NCBI RefSeq assembly: GCF_000723165.1
Contig: NZ_HG322949.1
Location: forward strand, 4,990,747 to 5,054,746
Direction of reading: 5' to 3'
DNA from: Janthinobacterium agaricidamnosum NBRC 102515 = DSM 9628
GTDB taxonomy: Bacteria; Pseudomonadota; Gammaproteobacteria; Burkholderiales; Burkholderiaceae_D
DNA length: 64,000 nucleotides
The notes below the pieces were generated by a model that saw nothing but the letters and a program-made list of their open reading frames with translations, was not told the origin of the DNA and searched no databases. The position numbers and the translations under genes are program-made. Position 1 is the stretch's first letter, and each line of letters opens with the position of its first letter. Positions 12,028 to 40,998 of this stretch are shown piece after piece.

Positions 12028-12807
12028 TCACGCTATCGGCGCCGGTTCAGGCCATCCATCGACAAATAATTTCAACTCGCCAGGTAAAAATGCGGTCCAG
12101 ATTTCATTGGTGGTCAACGGCTGGGTGACGATCACGGCGACACGATCGTCCGGCGTGGTCACTTGCGAAAAATCAACACTGACATCTTCATCAGACAGTT
12201 TAGCAGTGACGAAAGGATGTTGCCGCACTACATAAAACAAGTTCGTCGAACAATGGGCAAACAATTCCGTACCGCTCGACAACAGCATATTGAAAGTGCC
12301 GTGGGCCGCGATGCCGGCCACGATGCCGCCCAGTGCCGCATGCAGCTCGCCGCGCGACGGCGGCACAGCGCCGAAACGGGCCTGCAACTGTTGCAGCAGA
12401 TAACAGAAAGCCCGCTCGCTGTCGGTGCAGCCGACCGGCCGGTAGCTGCCATCGAGCACGGGCGCAAAGTCTTTCAAGTCGCCATTGTGGGCGAATACCC
12501 AGTAGCGCCCCCACAGTTCGCGCACGAAGGGATGGCAATTTTCCAGCGCCACCCGGCCCTGGGTCGCCTTGCGGATATGCGCAATCACGTTGGTGGACTT
12601 GATCGGGTAATGTTTGATCAGCTCGGCCACCGGCGACGCGATGGCGGCCTGGTGGTCGACGAAATGGCGCACCCCGGCGCCTTCGAAAAACGCGATGCCC
12701 CAGCCATCATGGTGGGTATCGGTGTGGCCGCCGCGCATCGCGAAGCCGGTAAAACTAAACACAATGTCGGTAGGGACATTGCAATTCATTCCTAGGAGTT
12801 GGCACAT
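12028..12807 (-). CDS. Class II glutamine amidotransferase (YafJ-like)
   Basis: 259 aa. The start is fixed by the N-terminal nucleophile: the protein begins MCQLLGMN, and Cys2 is the glutaminase nucleophile after removal of Met1. GATase_4-type motifs follow: GGHTDTHHDGWGIAFF, the Arg-containing IAHIRKATQG, and FAHNGDL, which binds glutamine. No synthetase domain is attached, so the ammonia acceptor is unknown; E. coli YafJ is the analogue. A frame extending to 12855 would bury the catalytic Cys and is rejected. Monocistronic. Confidence 0.9.
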   Translation of the reverse strand: MCQLLGMNCNVPTDIVFSFTGFAMRGGHTDTHHDGWGIAFFEGAGVRHFVDHQAAIASPVAELIKHYPIKSTNVIAHIRKATQGRVALENCHPFVRELWGRYWVFAHNGDLKDFAPVLDGSYRPVGCTDSERAFCYLLQQLQARFGAVPPSRGELHAALGGIVAGIAAHGTFNMLLSSGTELFAHCSTNLFYVVRQHPFVTAKLSDEDVSVDFSQVTTPDDRVAVIVTQPLTTNEIWTAFLPGELKLFVDGWPEPAPIA

Positions 12808-12939
12808 GGTTGCTTGACTGCTGTTCGATACAGGTAACAGGAACAACCTTACCACGCCGCTGCGCGCTCGCGGGAAAGAAGCGGTCCGACAACGTTAAAT
12901 TTAGCAACATTTAACGCTGGCGGGCCGGCAGGATGATTT

Positions 12940-13197
12940 TTAATGCAATAGTACCGGCTGGCTCATCAACGATTCGTAACTTCCAAGAAACTCATCGATT
13001 TCCTCCATGCTCGGTTCGCTGGCGATCAACTGGTTGACGTCGCGCCGGAAGTTTTGCGCCAGCACGCCGGCAATAAAGGTTTCGCGTTTGCCACCCTTGT
13101 CGACGATTTCATAGCCGCCGAAGCGCAACGCTTCCAGGTCGCGGTCGGCGCCGAATTCAACCACGCTGTATTGCTCGCTGTTATAGATGAGGTTCAT
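12940..13197 (-). CDS. DUF3567 family protein
   Basis: 85 aa. MNLIYNSEQYSVVEFGADRD, GGYEIVDKGGKRETFI and EIDEFLGSYESLMSQPVLLH match from memory the betaproteobacterial DUF3567 family, a short soluble protein of unknown function. No enzymatic motif or membrane segment. Its neighbours do not suggest a pathway. The full length is present. Confidence 0.85.
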   Translation of the reverse strand: MNLIYNSEQYSVVEFGADRDLEALRFGGYEIVDKGGKRETFIAGVLAQNFRRDVNQLIASEPSMEEIDEFLGSYESLMSQPVLLH

Positions 13198-13330
13198 TTT
13201 GCTTCCTTCGCTCTATCAAGGTGAGGGGGATACCTTGTCTTTCCACCGTCTCTTTCAGCACTGAGGTGGGGTTGGCGCCCGCCTTTTCAAGTAGCGCCCT
13301 CCCCTGCCAATTGTAACGGCTTGCTACCGA

Positions 13331-13717
13331 CTATGCTTGCACCGCCAAATCCGGTTCCAGCCGCAGGTAGGCGTCGTACGGCGGCGCCAGCAGCCACGCG
13401 CGTAATTGTTCCAGGTGGGTGGCGTTGGCCAGGCTGATGAACAGTTGCTCCGGAGGGTGGCGCAGCAAGCGGTTCAGGGTCACCCGCAACACCAGGTTAC
13501 CGGCGCAGCACAGGCAGCCGGGGGCGATGCGCAGTATCTGGGGAGCGACCCCGGGCGGCAAATCGGCCAGTGTCGAATTGCCGTCTGATAAGCCTTCGAG
13601 TATCGCGGCGCTAGCCACGCCGCTCAGCAGGGCCGCGCCGATGGCCGTTTCGCGCTGGCTGGCGCGGCCGCCGACCACCAGCGTGGTGGCCAGCGGCGCC
13701 GTGATGCCGGCGGTCAT
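13331..13717 (-). CDS. CobW-like protein fragment or mini-protein with CxCC motif, P-loop absent
   Basis: 128 aa. Middle motif GCLCCAGNLVLRVTLNRLL matches the metal-binding GCxCC segment and following helix of CobW/YjiA-type GTPases (G3E family). The N-terminal strand TTLVVGGRASQRETAI occupies the P-loop position but lacks GxxGxGKT, and the GTPase switch and C-terminal domains are missing, so GTP hydrolysis is unlikely. Its ATG overlaps the TGA of the ntrX-like gene (13714-13717), indicating translational coupling. Could be a metal-sensing or metal-binding remnant under the same promoter. Function not established. Confidence 0.6.
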   Translation of the reverse strand: MTAGITAPLATTLVVGGRASQRETAIGAALLSGVASAAILEGLSDGNSTLADLPPGVAPQILRIAPGCLCCAGNLVLRVTLNRLLRHPPEQLFISLANATHLEQLRAWLLAPPYDAYLRLEPDLAVQA

Positions 13718-34983: not shown

Positions 34984-36444
34984 ATGCAATGGGAAGTCGT
35001 CATCGGTCTTGAAAACCACGTACAACTCACGACCGAATCAAAAATTTTCAGCGGGTCGCCGATCAAGTTCGGCGCCGAGCCGAACACCCAGGCCAGCCCG
35101 GTCGACCTGGCATTGCCGGGCGTGCTGCCGGTGATGAACAAGGCCGCCGTCGAGCGGGCGATCCGCTTCGGCCTGGCGGTCGGCGCCACCATCGCGCCGC
35201 AATCGATTTTTGCGCGCAAAAACTACTTTTATCCGGACTTGCCGAAGGGTTACCAGATCAGCCAGTTCGAAGACCCTGTGGTGCAAGGCGGCAGCCTGAC
35301 TTTCGGCTATGAAAAGGATGGCGAATTCGTCACCAGGACCGTCAACTTGACGCGCGCCCACCTGGAAGAAGACGCCGGCAAATCGCTGCATGAAGATTAC
35401 CAGGGCATGACCGGCATCGACTTGAACCGCGCCGGCACGCCGCTGCTGGAAATCGTGTCGGAGCCGGAAATCCGCAGCGCCGCCGAAGCGGTGGCCTACG
35501 CCAAGGCGCTGCACTCGCTGGTGATGTGGCTCGGCGTTTGCGACGGCAATATGCAGGAAGGCTCGTTCCGCTGCGACGTCAACGTATCGGTGCGCCCGGT
35601 CGGCCAGAAGGAATTCGGCACCCGCTGCGAAATCAAGAACTTGAACTCGTTCCGCTTCATCGAAGAAGCCGTGCACGTCGAAGTGCGGCGCCAGATCGAG
35701 CTGATCGAAGACGGCGGCACGGTGCAGCAAGCTACTCGCCTGTACGATCCGGACAAGAAGGAAACCCGCGCCATGCGCAGCAAGGAAGACGCGCAGGATT
35801 ACCGCTACTTCCCGGACCCGGACTTGCCGCCGCTGACCATTTCGCCGGAATGGATAGCCCGTGTGAAGTCGGACATGCCGGAATTGCCGGGCGCGATGCG
35901 CACGCGTTTTTCGCAGGAATACGGCTTGTCCGATTACGACGGCCTGATCCTGACCCAGTCGCAAGCGAGCGCCGCGTACTTCGAAGCCGTGGTGGCCAAG
36001 GCCGGCAAGGAACACGCCAAGACCGCCGCCAACTGGCTGATGGGCGACGTCGCCTCGACGCTGAACCGCGAAAACGTCGACATCGCCGATTCGCCGGTTT
36101 CGGGCGTGCAGCTGGCATTGCTGATCCAGCGCATCGCCGACGGCACCATCTCGAACAAGCTGGCCAAGGAAGTCTACGCCGGCATGTGGCAAGCCAGGTC
36201 CGGCGATGAAAACCTGGCCGACATCGTCATCGAAGCCAAGGGGCTGAAACAGATTTCCGACAGCGGCGCGCTGGAAGCGATCGTCGACGAAGTGCTGGCG
36301 GCGAACGCCAAATCGGTCGAGCAATACCGCGCCGGCAAGGAAGCGGCGATCAACGCGCTGATCGGCCAGGCGATGAAGGCGTCGAAGGGCAAAGCCAACC
36401 CGGCCCAGCTGACCGAATTGCTGAAAGCGAAACTGGAAGGGTAA
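34984..36444 (+). CDS. gatB: Asp-tRNA(Asn)/Glu-tRNA(Gln) amidotransferase subunit B
   Basis: 486 aa. Phosphorylates Glu-tRNA(Gln)/Asp-tRNA(Asn) and transfers ammonia. N-terminal kinase 'cradle' domain begins [13 protein letters not shown] with [14 protein letters not shown] (here [14 protein letters not shown]) and [15 protein letters not shown]; the C-terminal helical and YqeY-like tail end [22 protein letters not shown] 34984 gives the family start; the open frame extends further upstream into gatA but that part is not GatB. Confidence 0.97.
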
Positions 36445-36470
36445 GCGCCGTAGGAAGGCAGCATACAGAA

Positions 36471-36494
36471 AGGACGCTCCGGCGTCCTTTTTTT
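36471..36494 (+). terminator. Rho-independent terminator of gatCAB
   Basis: AGGACGC / GCGTCCT stem with a 4-nt loop, followed by an uninterrupted run of Ts. It marks the end of the core operon and the left limit of the AT-rich accessory segment. Confidence 0.93.
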
Positions 36495-36618
36495 ATTGGG
36501 CGGCATTGTGACAGTGTGTGGATTTTTTTACATAAGCCACTGCTATTATATTTCTTTTATACAATTTTTATTTCATTCATTTAATTTTTATGAGATCGAT
36601 CTTCAGAAAGACGGACAT

Positions 36619-37437
36619 ATGACGGCACCAGACTGGCTTACAGGCCTGATACAAACAGAAATTAATGACGCAATTAGCAATGATAATCGTACCACTTCAA
36701 CAACTTTTTTGGGCTACCCTAGGGATAGGGTGTTCACGGACATTATTATGGGAGGCCAGGCAGACTTTGACCATCCATTACCGCAATGGAAATTAAAGGC
36801 AGCCGATGTAGTTCTACTGTACGCAAAATACAATCAAGGGCGACATTTGGATGAGCTCATACATGCCTTTAGCAGCCTGCTCGGCCCTAACCAGAAAATC
36901 ACCAAACCAACCATTCTAGATATCGGCTGTGGACCGTTTACCGGCGGGCTGGCATTCGCGGCGATTCAAAACTCCGATGAACCCTTTCGGTATTTTGGCG
37001 TTGATCGCTCAAAAGCCATGATTCAGCTAGGCGAATCATTGGCGGAGGCAGCGAAAGCACGCGGGGCATTTCATCCCAAGACTACATTTAAATTCGATAC
37101 CGATCTTGCTAACTTTGACTTTGGCCCAATCCGTGGTGAAATGACTATCGTTATTGCCTCATATTTGCTGGCAAGCCCCAGTCTAGACGTGAAATCTCTT
37201 GTTACGTCGGTTAGCGACGCCTTGGCTCGCATCGGTCCAGGACCGTGTGCCATTCTCTATACGAATAGCTCACGTCCCGAGGCAAGAGAAAAATTCCCTT
37301 CCTTTAAAGAAGCGCTTTTAAGACTGGGTTTTAAGTTAGTAACCGAGGACATCGCCCCATTTCATCATACGAGCAAAAAAGTTCTCGATCTGCACTATGC
37401 GTTGCTATTGAGGACCGAAGCTTCAATTTTTTTATAG
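36619..37437 (+). CDS. Class I SAM-dependent methyltransferase, first gene of accessory three-gene operon
   Basis: 272 aa. Motif I is DIGCGPFTGGLAFA starting at Asp101, the acidic ribose-binding residue is Asp129 in YFGVDRSKAM, and a motif IV-like segment follows in TIVIASYLLAS. The N-terminal ~95 residues (GYPRDRVFTDIIMGGQADF) have no signature I know. No target-recognition domain or NPPY-type DNA-adenine motif is visible, so the substrate (protein, tRNA, DNA or small molecule) is open. ATG 36619 is used; upstream codons to 36496 are AT-rich leader. The ribosome binding site (AGAAAG) is weak. Gene 2 starts 7 nt downstream. Base composition is clearly lower in GC than gatB. Confidence 0.75.
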   Translation: MTAPDWLTGLIQTEINDAISNDNRTTSTTFLGYPRDRVFTDIIMGGQADFDHPLPQWKLKAADVVLLYAKYNQGRHLDELIHAFSSLLGPNQKITKPTILDIGCGPFTGGLAFAAIQNSDEPFRYFGVDRSKAMIQLGESLAEAAKARGAFHPKTTFKFDTDLANFDFGPIRGEMTIVIASYLLASPSLDVKSLVTSVSDALARIGPGPCAILYTNSSRPEAREKFPSFKEALLRLGFKLVTEDIAPFHHTSKKVLDLHYALLLRTEASIFL

Positions 37438-37444
37438 GAAAATA

Positions 37445-38530
37445 ATGGATTTACCTAATCTCAATGACCTGATCGAAGAGCAGTTCATAGTCTACGATCA
37501 ACCACCTGAACAAAATCTATTTGTTGCAGGACCACCGGGTTCTGGCAAAACAAGTCTAGCTGTTATGCGTGCCGTTTTCCTTAAGAATAAGGGCCTAAAA
37601 ACCGTTTTGATCACTCGCAACAAGTTGCTTGCAGAACTAGGCAAACAACTTGGCAGTGACGGAATTGAAACCAGTACGCTTAGTAGTTTTATCTGGCATT
37701 CATACAAAGCCGATATCGGCCAAGAGGTACCGCAATTTACGAGCTATGTATATGACTGGGACCAAATTATAGCGAACTATGCTGCTATTAATTTCTCCCC
37801 TGCACTGGATCACTTGATTGTTGACGAAGGTCAAAATCTACCTGCAGGATTCTTCAAGTGGGCCTATCGATATGGGGCAAAAAGCCTGACAGTATTCGCG
37901 GACGAAGATCAAACTACTGATGCGCAGCGCTCGTCGCTCAATGACATCTGCAATGCAGGTCTACCAGCTCCCATAAGGCTTAAAGTAAACCATCGGAATA
38001 CTGCAGAAATTGCAGATGTTGCCGAGCACTTTCATCGTTTACAGAAATTACCTCCAGGCGTAGTACAGCGTGGACGGGGTGGCGAGTTGCCCAGAATGAC
38101 CGCCCTCAAAACGTGGGATGAACTTGCCTCTTTAGCATCAACCAGACTAACAAACAGAAACGAAGCCATCGGAATTATCGTTTATCTTCAAGACGAGGTG
38201 TTGTTGTTGCGGCAGAAGCTCGTTGATCTGTTACCATCAGGAACCCGTGTCGATGCGTACGTGAGTAAAATCGGGGCGGCTAGCGGAATACGCTTGCTTC
38301 AGCCTGGAATTACCATACTGAGCAGCGAATCAGCTATTGGTCTCGAATTCAATACCGTATACTTGCAGGATCTATGGCGCTCCCTACCGTGCTCCTCAGT
38401 GGACGATTTTCGGAGGATGTATATGCTGTGTGCACGAGCACGGGATAACTTAATACTGATTGACGGTCCCCATACACTTTCTCAGAGTCAAATAGCTGAT
38501 CTGCCGGGCCCTGAATTGCTTGAACGATGA
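37445..38530 (+). CDS. Compact superfamily 1 (UvrD-like) helicase/NTPase, second gene of accessory operon
   Basis: 361 aa. Motifs run in SF1 order: Walker A GPPGSGKT at 29-36 (Lys35), motif Ia TVLITRNKLLAEL, Walker B variant DEGQ at 127-130, motif III FADEDQ (Asp153-Gln156), motif IV-like KVNHRNTAEI, motif V ILSSESAIGLEFNTVYL, motif VI YMLCARARDNLIL with Arg331/Arg333 as arginine fingers. All ATPase motifs are kept, but at 361 aa there is little room for the 1B/2B insertions of processive UvrD/Rep/PcrA helicases. Likely a nucleic-acid-dependent NTPase or remodeller. Soluble, no nuclease motif. Its TGA overlaps the ATG of the next gene by 4 nt. Confidence 0.8.
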   Translation: MDLPNLNDLIEEQFIVYDQPPEQNLFVAGPPGSGKTSLAVMRAVFLKNKGLKTVLITRNKLLAELGKQLGSDGIETSTLSSFIWHSYKADIGQEVPQFTSYVYDWDQIIANYAAINFSPALDHLIVDEGQNLPAGFFKWAYRYGAKSLTVFADEDQTTDAQRSSLNDICNAGLPAPIRLKVNHRNTAEIADVAEHFHRLQKLPPGVVQRGRGGELPRMTALKTWDELASLASTRLTNRNEAIGIIVYLQDEVLLLRQKLVDLLPSGTRVDAYVSKIGAASGIRLLQPGITILSSESAIGLEFNTVYLQDLWRSLPCSSVDDFRRMYMLCARARDNLILIDGPHTLSQSQIADLPGPELLER

Positions 38531-40725
38531 ACCAAACTCCTCCGATACAAATGAACCTTTCCTTGCACTCTGAGAAGACGCTTGAGAAATCCGATACTGC
38601 GCCGGCGAACGCGCCGATAAAGCTAGTGGTGACGCTGGACCACCGTGCATGGCTGCAACTGCTTGTTGATGAATGGTGGCCGTTGCAGGAGGGTGTAAAA
38701 GGCATTTGTCTCGGAGTTAACTCCTCAGTCAGCTATGTAAATACCGATGACAGACGCATTGCTGTCAGCGCATGGATTGACCATCGGCTACTGCCCCGCA
38801 GTATCATTCCAATTCTGAGAAATGGCACATGGGCGGAAAATACGCTCGACAGCTTGTCTGCAGAAGATCTACAAATATACTGGCCGGGCCCAATCCCCTT
38901 GTTCGCCATCACGACATTCAGCGTATCCTCGCACGATGAGCGTGATCGCCTGTTGGCGATGTGCAAAGGATTTGCCAATGTCGAGTTACCAAGGCAGCCG
39001 ATTCTGATTACGGTAACTGAGGGAGAGGGCTGGGGATTGCAGGAACCAAGCGCAACGATGTCATTCCTGCCACCAGCCAGATGGAACCGCATTCGCGGTG
39101 CCGCCGCAATGGCAATCTGGGCAGTTCCCAAAATAGCTCCATGGCTGGATATGCTATGTTACTCCTTATCACCTACTTCAACTGAAATCGGGTCAGATGC
39201 GGCCGTGTTGGAGGCTGACTGGCTAATGTATCCCGTATGGTGCGACTCGGCAGAGAACATGCAGCAATCGCCGATGTGGCGCGCAATTATCGAAACCTTC
39301 GAGACAGTCCACCTCCAAAAAGAATGGCGCCCAATCACAGTACTTAGCCAGATTGCGGCAACGGCTGAAAAATATGGTGTGCCTTTGAATAGCCTTGATG
39401 ATCTCACGCGTAGAACCAGAGACATTCTGAATGACCGGGCATCAATTGATATAAGCCTCGCAACAGCTGACCCTCTTGGCTTCTCGTTGCAACTAGTATT
39501 ACTGCGTCCGAGAGCAACCGCATACAAATCATGGGCAATTGAATTTCCTGGCATGCCTCCAGCAGCTTGGTGGACAGGAGCTATCCTTTCTGGCTTCTTG
39601 GAAGGCTATCGAGACTTGCTGCCGCAATTCCGTGGTTCTCCGGAAAGCAGACGCGTATTGGCTCTGCGCACATGGGGCCTCAAGATGAATGGATCTCCTT
39701 GGTCCGACGATGTGACGCTTAATCTTTGTTGGCGTATTTGTGATGGCATGATTCAGTTCCTTGAAGGCGATCAGGTATGGGCAACTCGAAAATGCAACAA
39801 CCGTGGCAATTGGTATATTGCAAACTACGACGACACCGAAGTGCAAGCGGAAGCTTTGGCAATTGCGAAGATCCTTTATAAGGATGGCGTTCAAAAAACA
39901 CTACTCTTGAATAATCAAACGCTGCAAATTTCAGGCGATGGGAGTCTGACAATTGATACCACCAATTCAAGCCTGACAGCTAATGGGAAAATTCACCTGC
40001 ATTTAAACGCCGACTCGAAAATTTTCGATGCTCTCCATGTCGAAAAGTTCCGCGCCTGGATAGCCAAAGGCAGCATTGCTAAATTGCTGCCGGCGCCACC
40101 GTCCGTGCGGGTAGTCGAAGAGGCAATGCCACAACCCGCAATGTCCCTTTCCGGCCTAGTATCAGTACCTGTCGCGAATGGCCCACAGGGATTGGTGGCG
40201 ATATCTGAATTCCTTTCCAAGGAAGAAGAGAAAGAACTTATCATAGCCGTCGATAGCGTGCAGTGGCTCGATGAGCTATCGCGCCGTGTACAGCACTATG
40301 GCTGGAAATATGATTACAAGGCCCGCAAAATAACTCAATCCGCTTTTATCGGAGCGCTCCCCGACTGGGCTGCCAAAATTGGACAGCGGCTACTTGAGGC
40401 GGGCCTTGTAGACGAACTTCCGGATCAAGTGATCGTCAATGAATATATAGGTAATCAGGGTATCAGCAAACATATTGACTGCGCTAGCTGCTTCCGTGGT
40501 CCAGTAGTCACAATCAGCCTTTGCGAATCATGGGGGATGACATTCCGCGGCCCGGACAGTGCGAAGTTTGAATGTATTCTTGACCGTCGTAGTGCTGTCT
40601 CGATAAGCGGACCAGCACGATCCGTCTGGTCGCACGAAATTCCAAAACGTAAAAAGGAAGCGTTCGGATTGCGAGGGAGGAGGGTATCGCTGACCTTCCG
40701 TAAAGTCGACCTCACCAGCTCCTGA
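38527..40725 (+). CDS. AlkB-type Fe(II)/2-oxoglutarate dioxygenase fused to a large uncharacterised N-terminal region
   Basis: 732 aa. Residues ~555-732 form an AlkB domain: NEYIGNQGISKHIDCASCF with the iron ligands His649 and Asp651, FRGPVVTISL, SGPARSVWSHEIP with the third ligand His703, and RVSLTFR with the two 2-oxoglutarate arginines Arg719 and Arg725. All catalytic residues are present, so oxidative demethylation or hydroxylation is plausible. Residues 1-545 are soluble, rich in Trp, and show no motif I recognise; they are about three times the size of the catalytic part and may bind the substrate or the partners. Starts inside the stop of the NTPase gene (ATGA). AT-rich codon use. Confidence 0.82.
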   Translation: MNQTPPIQMNLSLHSEKTLEKSDTAPANAPIKLVVTLDHRAWLQLLVDEWWPLQEGVKGICLGVNSSVSYVNTDDRRIAVSAWIDHRLLPRSIIPILRNGTWAENTLDSLSAEDLQIYWPGPIPLFAITTFSVSSHDERDRLLAMCKGFANVELPRQPILITVTEGEGWGLQEPSATMSFLPPARWNRIRGAAAMAIWAVPKIAPWLDMLCYSLSPTSTEIGSDAAVLEADWLMYPVWCDSAENMQQSPMWRAIIETFETVHLQKEWRPITVLSQIAATAEKYGVPLNSLDDLTRRTRDILNDRASIDISLATADPLGFSLQLVLLRPRATAYKSWAIEFPGMPPAAWWTGAILSGFLEGYRDLLPQFRGSPESRRVLALRTWGLKMNGSPWSDDVTLNLCWRICDGMIQFLEGDQVWATRKCNNRGNWYIANYDDTEVQAEALAIAKILYKDGVQKTLLLNNQTLQISGDGSLTIDTTNSSLTANGKIHLHLNADSKIFDALHVEKFRAWIAKGSIAKLLPAPPSVRVVEEAMPQPAMSLSGLVSVPVANGPQGLVAISEFLSKEEEKELIIAVDSVQWLDELSRRVQHYGWKYDYKARKITQSAFIGALPDWAAKIGQRLLEAGLVDELPDQVIVNEYIGNQGISKHIDCASCFRGPVVTISLCESWGMTFRGPDSAKFECILDRRSAVSISGPARSVWSHEIPKRKKEAFGLRGRRVSLTFRKVDLTSS

Positions 40726-40727
40726 TA

Positions 40728-40913
40728 GTGCCCGTCACCGTGTCCTACGACATCGATACCGCTGGTAAGACAACGTCCTCGAACGTAATCAAGAGCATCG
40801 GCTCCCCTGTCCCCGATGAGGCCGTGCACGAGGGCATTGCCAACTGCAGCTTCACACTGGCCTTAGCTGACGGCATACCTGTCAATTCCACCTTCAAGAT
40901 GCAGTACGTATGA
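40728..40913 (+). pseudogene. Fragment resembling a TonB C-terminal domain
   Basis: 61 codons from a GTG just after the AlkB-fusion stop. PVTVSYDIDTAGKTTSSNVI, SIGSPVPDEAVHEGIANCSF and ADGIPVNSTFKMQYV follow the pattern of TonB_C domains (xVxFxIdxxGxvxxxxVxxSxGxxxxDxAAxxxvxxxxFxPAxxDGkpV). The membrane helix and proline-rich spacer of a working TonB are absent, so I call it a remnant; a small free-standing protein is less likely. It may be a scar of the insertion that brought the accessory operon. Confidence 0.5.
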
Positions 40914-40998
40914 TCCATGGACACATCATTCGCAGCAGCAGCGCCACCGCCCGCTTGCGGGTATGATCATGCTATCTCCAACGCACAATGAGCATGCC

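Follow-up and report, generated by a model that had tools for sequence, protein, structure and literature searches.

Three genes of the window (the whole 64,000-nt stretch that was analysed, from a genome that is a single contig of 5.95 Mb) form one recurrent unit that moves horizontally. They encode a class I SAM methyltransferase, a compact SF1-type NTPase and a protein that joins a large N-terminal region to an AlkB-type oxygenase. We read the unit as a mobile conflict cassette, probably anti-phage or anti-plasmid, in which two older modules were joined and which would methylate and oxidise a target that is likely RNA; we give this reading a probability of about 0.45.

All three genes lie on the + strand: gene 1 (36619..37437) encodes the methyltransferase of 272 residues, gene 2 (37445..38530) the HelD/UvrD-like NTPase of 361 residues and gene 3 (38527..40725) the 732-residue fusion, with an N-terminal region of ∼540 residues. 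The intergenic gaps are 7 nt between genes 1 and 2 and −4 nt between genes 2 and 3. The GC content of the trio is 0.489, compared with 0.627 and 0.639 in the 10-kb flanks, and the lowest value for any 4107-nt segment of the window (0.482 at 36501, in 100-nt steps) coincides with it. GC3 is 0.43–0.51 in the trio genes, 0.84 in gatA and 0.81 in gfo.

The trio is a clean insertion of ∼4.2 kb between gatB and a truncated gene that we take to be TonB-like. The left edge is the gatB terminator, recognised in the sequence as a GC-rich inverted repeat with a T run (36471..36494, + strand). Among 19 same-genus loci, similarity extending through gatB reaches 36494–36499 in 10 and ends at 36436–36449 in nine. 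The AT-rich leader that follows (36500..36618, + strand), delimited by comparison with relatives and presumed to contain the promoter, has no match among the 19 loci. The right edge is the 3′ remnant of the TonB-like gene (40732..40914, + strand), which is outside the system. In the same-genus genome G012 (locus L056), this gene is intact (124 aa) and lies between gatB and gfo, whereas the window retains its 3′ part only, beginning right after the stop of gene 3. With these two edges, the cassette spans ∼36500–40731 and consists of the leader and the three genes; gfo follows at 40963 (gatB and gfo were named by eye). A gfo match lies within 1.5 kb of gatB in eight of the 19 same-genus loci, and in five of the eight (L044, L045, L050, L055 and L061) the two homologies are less than 100 bases apart; the 1.5 kb covered in the other 11 contains no gfo match. 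These differing layouts indicate that the site is variable. The first-pass annotation had described three coupled genes in AT-richer DNA with different codon use, set between a gatB terminator and ordinary chromosome, and both the composition and the edges placed by means of relatives agree with it.

Gene 1 carries the motif DIGCGP and has generic methyltransferase matches in Pfam. In our fold comparison, it is closest to METTL17, a mitochondrial small-ribosome assembly protein. Since the matches of its profile to PDB sequences are weak (trans-aconitate methyltransferase, E = 6e-4; METTL17, E = 0.006), the link to METTL17 depends on the fold, and Pfam Rsm22 does not rise above its cut-off in gene 1. 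By eye, the DNA amino-methyltransferase signature is not seen in the gene 1 alignment, making RNA a better guess than DNA as the target. The best match in PADLOC-DB 2023 is C3a159 (41.4 bits), presumably a type III CRISPR-associated candidate; the label does not occur in the main text of the PADLOC paper. In a metagenome protein of 469 residues (P0213), the gene 1 sequence is continued by the NTPase's C-terminal half, through either fusion or an assembly deletion.

Gene 2 has PhoH/SF1-type matches in Pfam, with GPPGSGKT at residue 29 and DEGQ at residue 127. All of motifs I–VI, in the numbering and consensus that we assume for such NTPases, are found (GPPGSGKT, DEGQ, ADEDQ, NHRNT, SESAIGLEF and CARARD). 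By these motifs, the protein is an SF1 helicase-type NTPase, for which unwinding is predicted. HelD is the best profile match in the PDB (E = 1.2e-21), and RTasNERD-Hel (40.3 bits) is the best in PADLOC-DB 2023.

The C-terminal domain of protein 3 (40156..40722, + strand) is assigned to the AlkB-type 2OG-Fe(II) oxygenases by Pfam, PDB sequence matches and fold. Pfam family 2OG-FeII_Oxy_2 (PF13532) matches residues 593–725 with E = 1.3e-15 and 58.6 bits (cut-off, 31.2), and it is the sole Pfam match in the protein at E ≤ 1. HxD, the distal His and RxxxxxR are kept in 25 of 26 homologs, the 26th (P0026) being without an AlkB domain. The best PDB sequence match is ALKBH8 (3thp, E = 3e-23). ALKBH8 and ALKBH6 also head the fold lists for protein 3, which are filled by matches of the AlkB domain; the lead of ALKBH8 is small (Z = 22.6 and 21.3, compared with 21.2 for ALKBH3). 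For the N-terminal ∼540 residues, Pfam gives nothing at E ≤ 1, and the best PADLOC-DB 2023 match of gene 3 is CARF_2OG (E = 0.017). In three cases (P0019, P0022 and L037, 11685–14492), the fusion protein has ∼200 extra residues C-terminal to AlkB; the extension of L037 appears unlike that of P0019 and P0022.

The complete trio, in identical order, is present in all seven loci read in which the NTPase profile matches with E < 1e-90 (the window, L025, L026, L032, L037, L066 and L067), and its association is therefore not due to chance. Protein searches at E ≤ 1e-3 returned at least 26 fusion homologs, 632 NTPases and 400 methyltransferases, the window's own included. The fusion and NTPase searches scored only candidates sharing most words, and the third gene of L025, which is plainly in the DNA, is absent from the matches, so that 26 is a lower bound. 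Judged by eye among the matches listed (the best 120 each for NTPase and methyltransferase), 10 of the 26 fusion homologs, counting the window's own, have both partners on their contig, six have one and 10 have neither, seven of the latter being on contigs shorter than 11 kb. Carriers of all three genes include Ralstonia, Burkholderia, Paraburkholderia and Melittangium. Protein distances correlate across 16 complete sets (r = 0.88–0.93), nine of which were assembled from the listed contig assignments and not from DNA reading.

The distribution is sporadic. In genome sets that overlap, the NTPase occurs in 1 of 399 genomes of the order (its own; E ≤ 1e-30), 3 of 294 of the family (E ≤ 1e-20) and 6 of 369 of the class (E ≤ 1e-30; its own, one close and four distant). 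At E ≤ 1e-40, it is found in 2 of 40 genomes of the window's genus and in 3 of 74 of the genus of G527, which belongs to the same family; one of four genomes in the order of G908 also has it. The fusion protein matches 17 of 100 relative genomes (E ≤ 1e-3), over its whole length only in its own genome and G038 and over part of the AlkB domain in the other 15. The sites of the trio differ: one copy is near kdtA and one near gyrB (both by eye), and others follow an M17 peptidase gene, share a contig with a plasmid-type RepA, lie two genes from a DUF3732 gene or adjoin a DUF5131 gene. In the last case (L067, 4104–7116), the DUF5131 gene and two more, which by eye are three-Cys-motif partners, are directly downstream of the trio. 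In the window, L025, L026 and L032 (L025 and L026 by eye), the surroundings are housekeeping-like and not a defence island.

The NTPase and the N-terminal half of protein 3 look like an older module of their own. Distant relatives of the NTPase directly follow DrmA–DrmB in five loci: L021, a Deinococcus plasmid (NTPase, 31%); L022, a Streptomyces plasmid (32%); and L033, L034 and L036 (profile E = 5e-58 to 2e-46). In four of the five (not L022), the next gene encodes a protein that we call X, and the locus also contains a gene for a NERD helicase. In L035, an NTPase (E = 2e-44) and X occur without DrmA or DrmB beside them. The X proteins of L034, L035 and L036 are strongly linked by BLAST (E = 1e-18 to 5e-76), and those of L021 and L033 are weakly linked to other X proteins (best E = 3e-6 and 1e-5). 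Of the five X proteins, the fusion profile matches those of L036 (E = 2e-5) and L035 (E = 1e-3) and not those of L021, L033 and L034. An hhalign comparison of X with the first 515 residues of the fusion gives a score of 58.8 (E = 1.5e-6; probability, 90%) over 294 columns, with homology confined to the aligned residues 74–389 (38746..39693, + strand). Controls reach at most 21.4 in 100 column shuffles, 18.7 for the reversed profile, 16.3 for the methyltransferase and 14.6 for the NTPase alignment. Conversely, the X profile matches six of 359 proteins, all of them fusion proteins (E = 2e-5 to 5e-3); these are six of 32 fusion proteins, the window's own not among them. Searched with the X alignment, a phylum set containing no known positive gave 0 of 249; plasmids gave no match to X of L036, and the X profile has no clear match among PDB sequences (best E = 0.085). 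In the NTPase tree, five trio loci and 31 close homologs cluster together (support, 100/99), separately from the NTPases of the DrmA–DrmB and pair loci; long branches are flagged, and the branching order among the distant sequences is unsure.

2CompART (PF22546) is an ADP-ribosyltransferase family. One of the five X proteins matches it below threshold (L034, residues 6–121, E = 7.5e-4; 20.1 bits, cut-off 27), and window protein 3 has no match. Since residues 6–121 of L034 mostly precede the stretch shared with protein 3, this hint may be irrelevant to the trio. The arrangement of DrmA–DrmB, NTPase and X with a NERD helicase (L021, L033, L034 and L036) is possibly an undescribed DISARM-related layout, and in L033 an HhH-GPD protein (12671–13348; 'REase_II' in PADLOC) adjoins X on its downstream side.

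The methyltransferase and AlkB likewise look like a second older module. On the Picosynechococcus plasmids pAQ6 and pAQ5 and on a PCC 7003 plasmid, a methyltransferase gene is followed by a lone AlkB gene. The methyltransferase has low similarity to gene 1 (24% identity, E = 9e-9 to 1e-7), and the lone AlkB is 44% identical with the window's AlkB domain. The pair is preceded by a WYL gene, with an AAA_33 domain in both of two tested; further upstream are Cmr genes on two plasmids and a reverse transcriptase gene on one. On pAQ5 (L039, 3801–9483), one strand encodes, consecutively, reverse transcriptase, a hypothetical protein, the AAA_33–WYL protein, methyltransferase and AlkB. Lone AlkB genes are common: pAQ6 AlkB matches 163 plasmid records, in six of which the neighbours were read. 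Other plasmid AlkB matches (Roseobacter, Streptomyces and Bradyrhizobium) have no annotated methyltransferase adjoining in the PLSDB gene table, which is incomplete. The adjacency of methyltransferase and AlkB in two contexts whose NTPases are unrelated suggests a shared substrate.

The searches of viral contigs gave no relative of the NTPase or of the cyanobacterial methyltransferase; one viral locus matches protein 3 and at least four match gene 1, one of them on the same contig. Phages have no match to any of the three trio proteins or to the cyanobacterial methyltransferase. In two IMG/VR loci (L071, 6851–9131; L072, 6546–10549), a gene that is kinase-like by eye precedes one for a compact SF1-type NTPase that is distantly related (27% and 35%, respectively), with a third gene in L072; the layout is similar with another first enzyme.

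These results sustain part of what the first-pass annotation had proposed. Neither outcome that it had named as refuting, a trio that fails to recur or three proteins that all fall within one named system, was observed. Its single unit recurs, in the same order in every close locus read; the catalytic motifs that it reported as intact were found in all three proteins; and its analogy to ALKBH8 agrees with sequence and fold. What it missed are the NTPase–X and methyltransferase–AlkB pairs.

We suggest that protein 3, through its X half, likely forms with the NTPase an ATP-driven platform for sensing or delivery, and that the methyltransferase and the X-tethered AlkB domain would modify the same target by methylation and oxidation, possibly within one complex. 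Judging by the likeness to ALKBH8 and by the METTL17 fold, the target is probably RNA, most likely tRNA or rRNA of host or invader, although a shared fold alone reveals no substrate. The two reactions could run towards hypermodification or towards erasure. An immune outcome would fit the kinship of both modules to defence-type loci; the housekeeping-like surroundings of four copies and the lack of a single matching PADLOC system speak against it. More specifically, the cassette might represent a new immune class, in which a compact SF1 motor, with X as its platform, delivers paired RNA methylation and Fe(II)/2OG oxidation; this is possible but doubtful. If true, it would give a role to at least some bacterial ALKBH8-type enzymes. 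AlkB oxidation would then be an effector chemistry met in no defence system in the open-licence literature searched, and the NTPase–X module would connect it to DrmA–DrmB loci. With dedicated methyltransferase and motor partners in a transferable cassette, the substrate question of bacterial ALKBH8-like enzymes becomes directly testable.

Alternatively, the trio may hypermodify tRNA or rRNA in stress or adaptation, with an alkyl mark set by the methyltransferase and hydroxylated by AlkB, after the manner of ALKBH8, while the NTPase opens structured RNA, and have no immune role. ALKBH8 as the closest solved relative by sequence, a methyltransferase fold shared with a mitochondrial-ribosome assembly protein and the pairing of methyltransferase and AlkB twice, with different NTPases, are consistent with this. 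Nevertheless, the sporadic, mobile distribution and the kinship to DrmA–DrmB and CRISPR-adjacent modules make it unlikely. We consider it decidedly unlikely that the methyltransferase protects host nucleic acid while AlkB and NTPase strip or oxidise the methyl marks of an invader. The layout of methyltransferase, motor and effector resembles restriction-type systems, the NTPase–X module accompanies DrmA–DrmB, and a review (PMC7824862) suggests a resetting of methyl marks by the AlkB enzymes that occur sporadically in phages; however, by eye the gene 1 alignment shows no DNA amino-methyltransferase motif and no nuclease family is among the Pfam matches to the three proteins, so that a DNA methyltransferase or restriction reading is not our first choice.

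An alkylation damage repair island, suggested by AlkB family membership, is less likely than a conflict cassette and very unlikely in itself. PMC4051686 reports that DNA lesions are repaired in vitro by the ALKBH8s assayed there, some more than others, but that an Agrobacterium ALKBH8 mutant is unchanged in tRNA-Gly(UCC) and in survival of MMS and CAA; its authors state that bacterial ALKBH8-like oxygenases have an unidentified physiological substrate and favour an RNA; a methyltransferase, moreover, would not be an obvious repair partner. Least probable is a toxin–antidote pair, in which AlkB, under NTPase control, would undo the methylation of an essential RNA by gene 1: the opposed chemistry within one operon and the strict co-inheritance fit, but an AlkB that is tied to a motor and shares its chain with a large N-terminal region would be unlike a simple antidote.

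Returning to the conflict cassette, its parts belong to known superfamilies, and its composition and both module links are new as far as we found. The three proteins match no single system's models in PADLOC-DB 2023, and we found no description of the methyltransferase–NTPase–AlkB composition, nor of either module link, in the open-licence literature, in keeping with the earlier statement that no such system is described. The main text of PMC12458937, which describes the classes ARMADA, BRIGADE and TALON, mentions neither AlkB nor dioxygenase.

ALKBH8 is a tRNA wobble hydroxylase, acting on mcm5U of tRNA-Gly(UCC) and composed of RRM, AlkB and methyltransferase. The trio AlkB domain is 37–38% identical with it over 163–170 aligned residues, shares HxD…H and RxxxxxR and also has a methyltransferase partner. 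In contrast to ALKBH8, this methyltransferase is a separate gene with a fold closest to METTL17, there is no RRM match, and AlkB shares its chain with the ∼540-residue region and is linked to an SF1-type NTPase. ALKBH8 proper, with RRM and C-terminal methyltransferase in the chain, was rejected since PF13532 stands alone in protein 3. Motor motifs are shared with HelD/UvrD-type SF1 enzymes, but the trio NTPase has only 361 residues, which would leave little room for the large HelD/UvrD inserts. A homologous compact NTPase adjoining a homologous X gene is common to the trio and the DISARM-related DrmA–DrmB loci, whereas these loci have no match to the trio-type methyltransferase or AlkB fusion at E = 1e-3. 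Membership in DISARM was rejected, as the three proteins have no DrmA or DrmB match and are flanked by gatB and gfo. The Picosynechococcus loci share with the trio a methyltransferase followed by an adjacent ALKBH8-like AlkB, and the pAQ6 methyltransferase, like gene 1, matches PADLOC C3a159. They differ in having an AAA_33–WYL partner in place of the SF1-type NTPase and an AlkB that is a lone protein of 204 residues, encoded beside type III CRISPR or reverse transcriptase genes.
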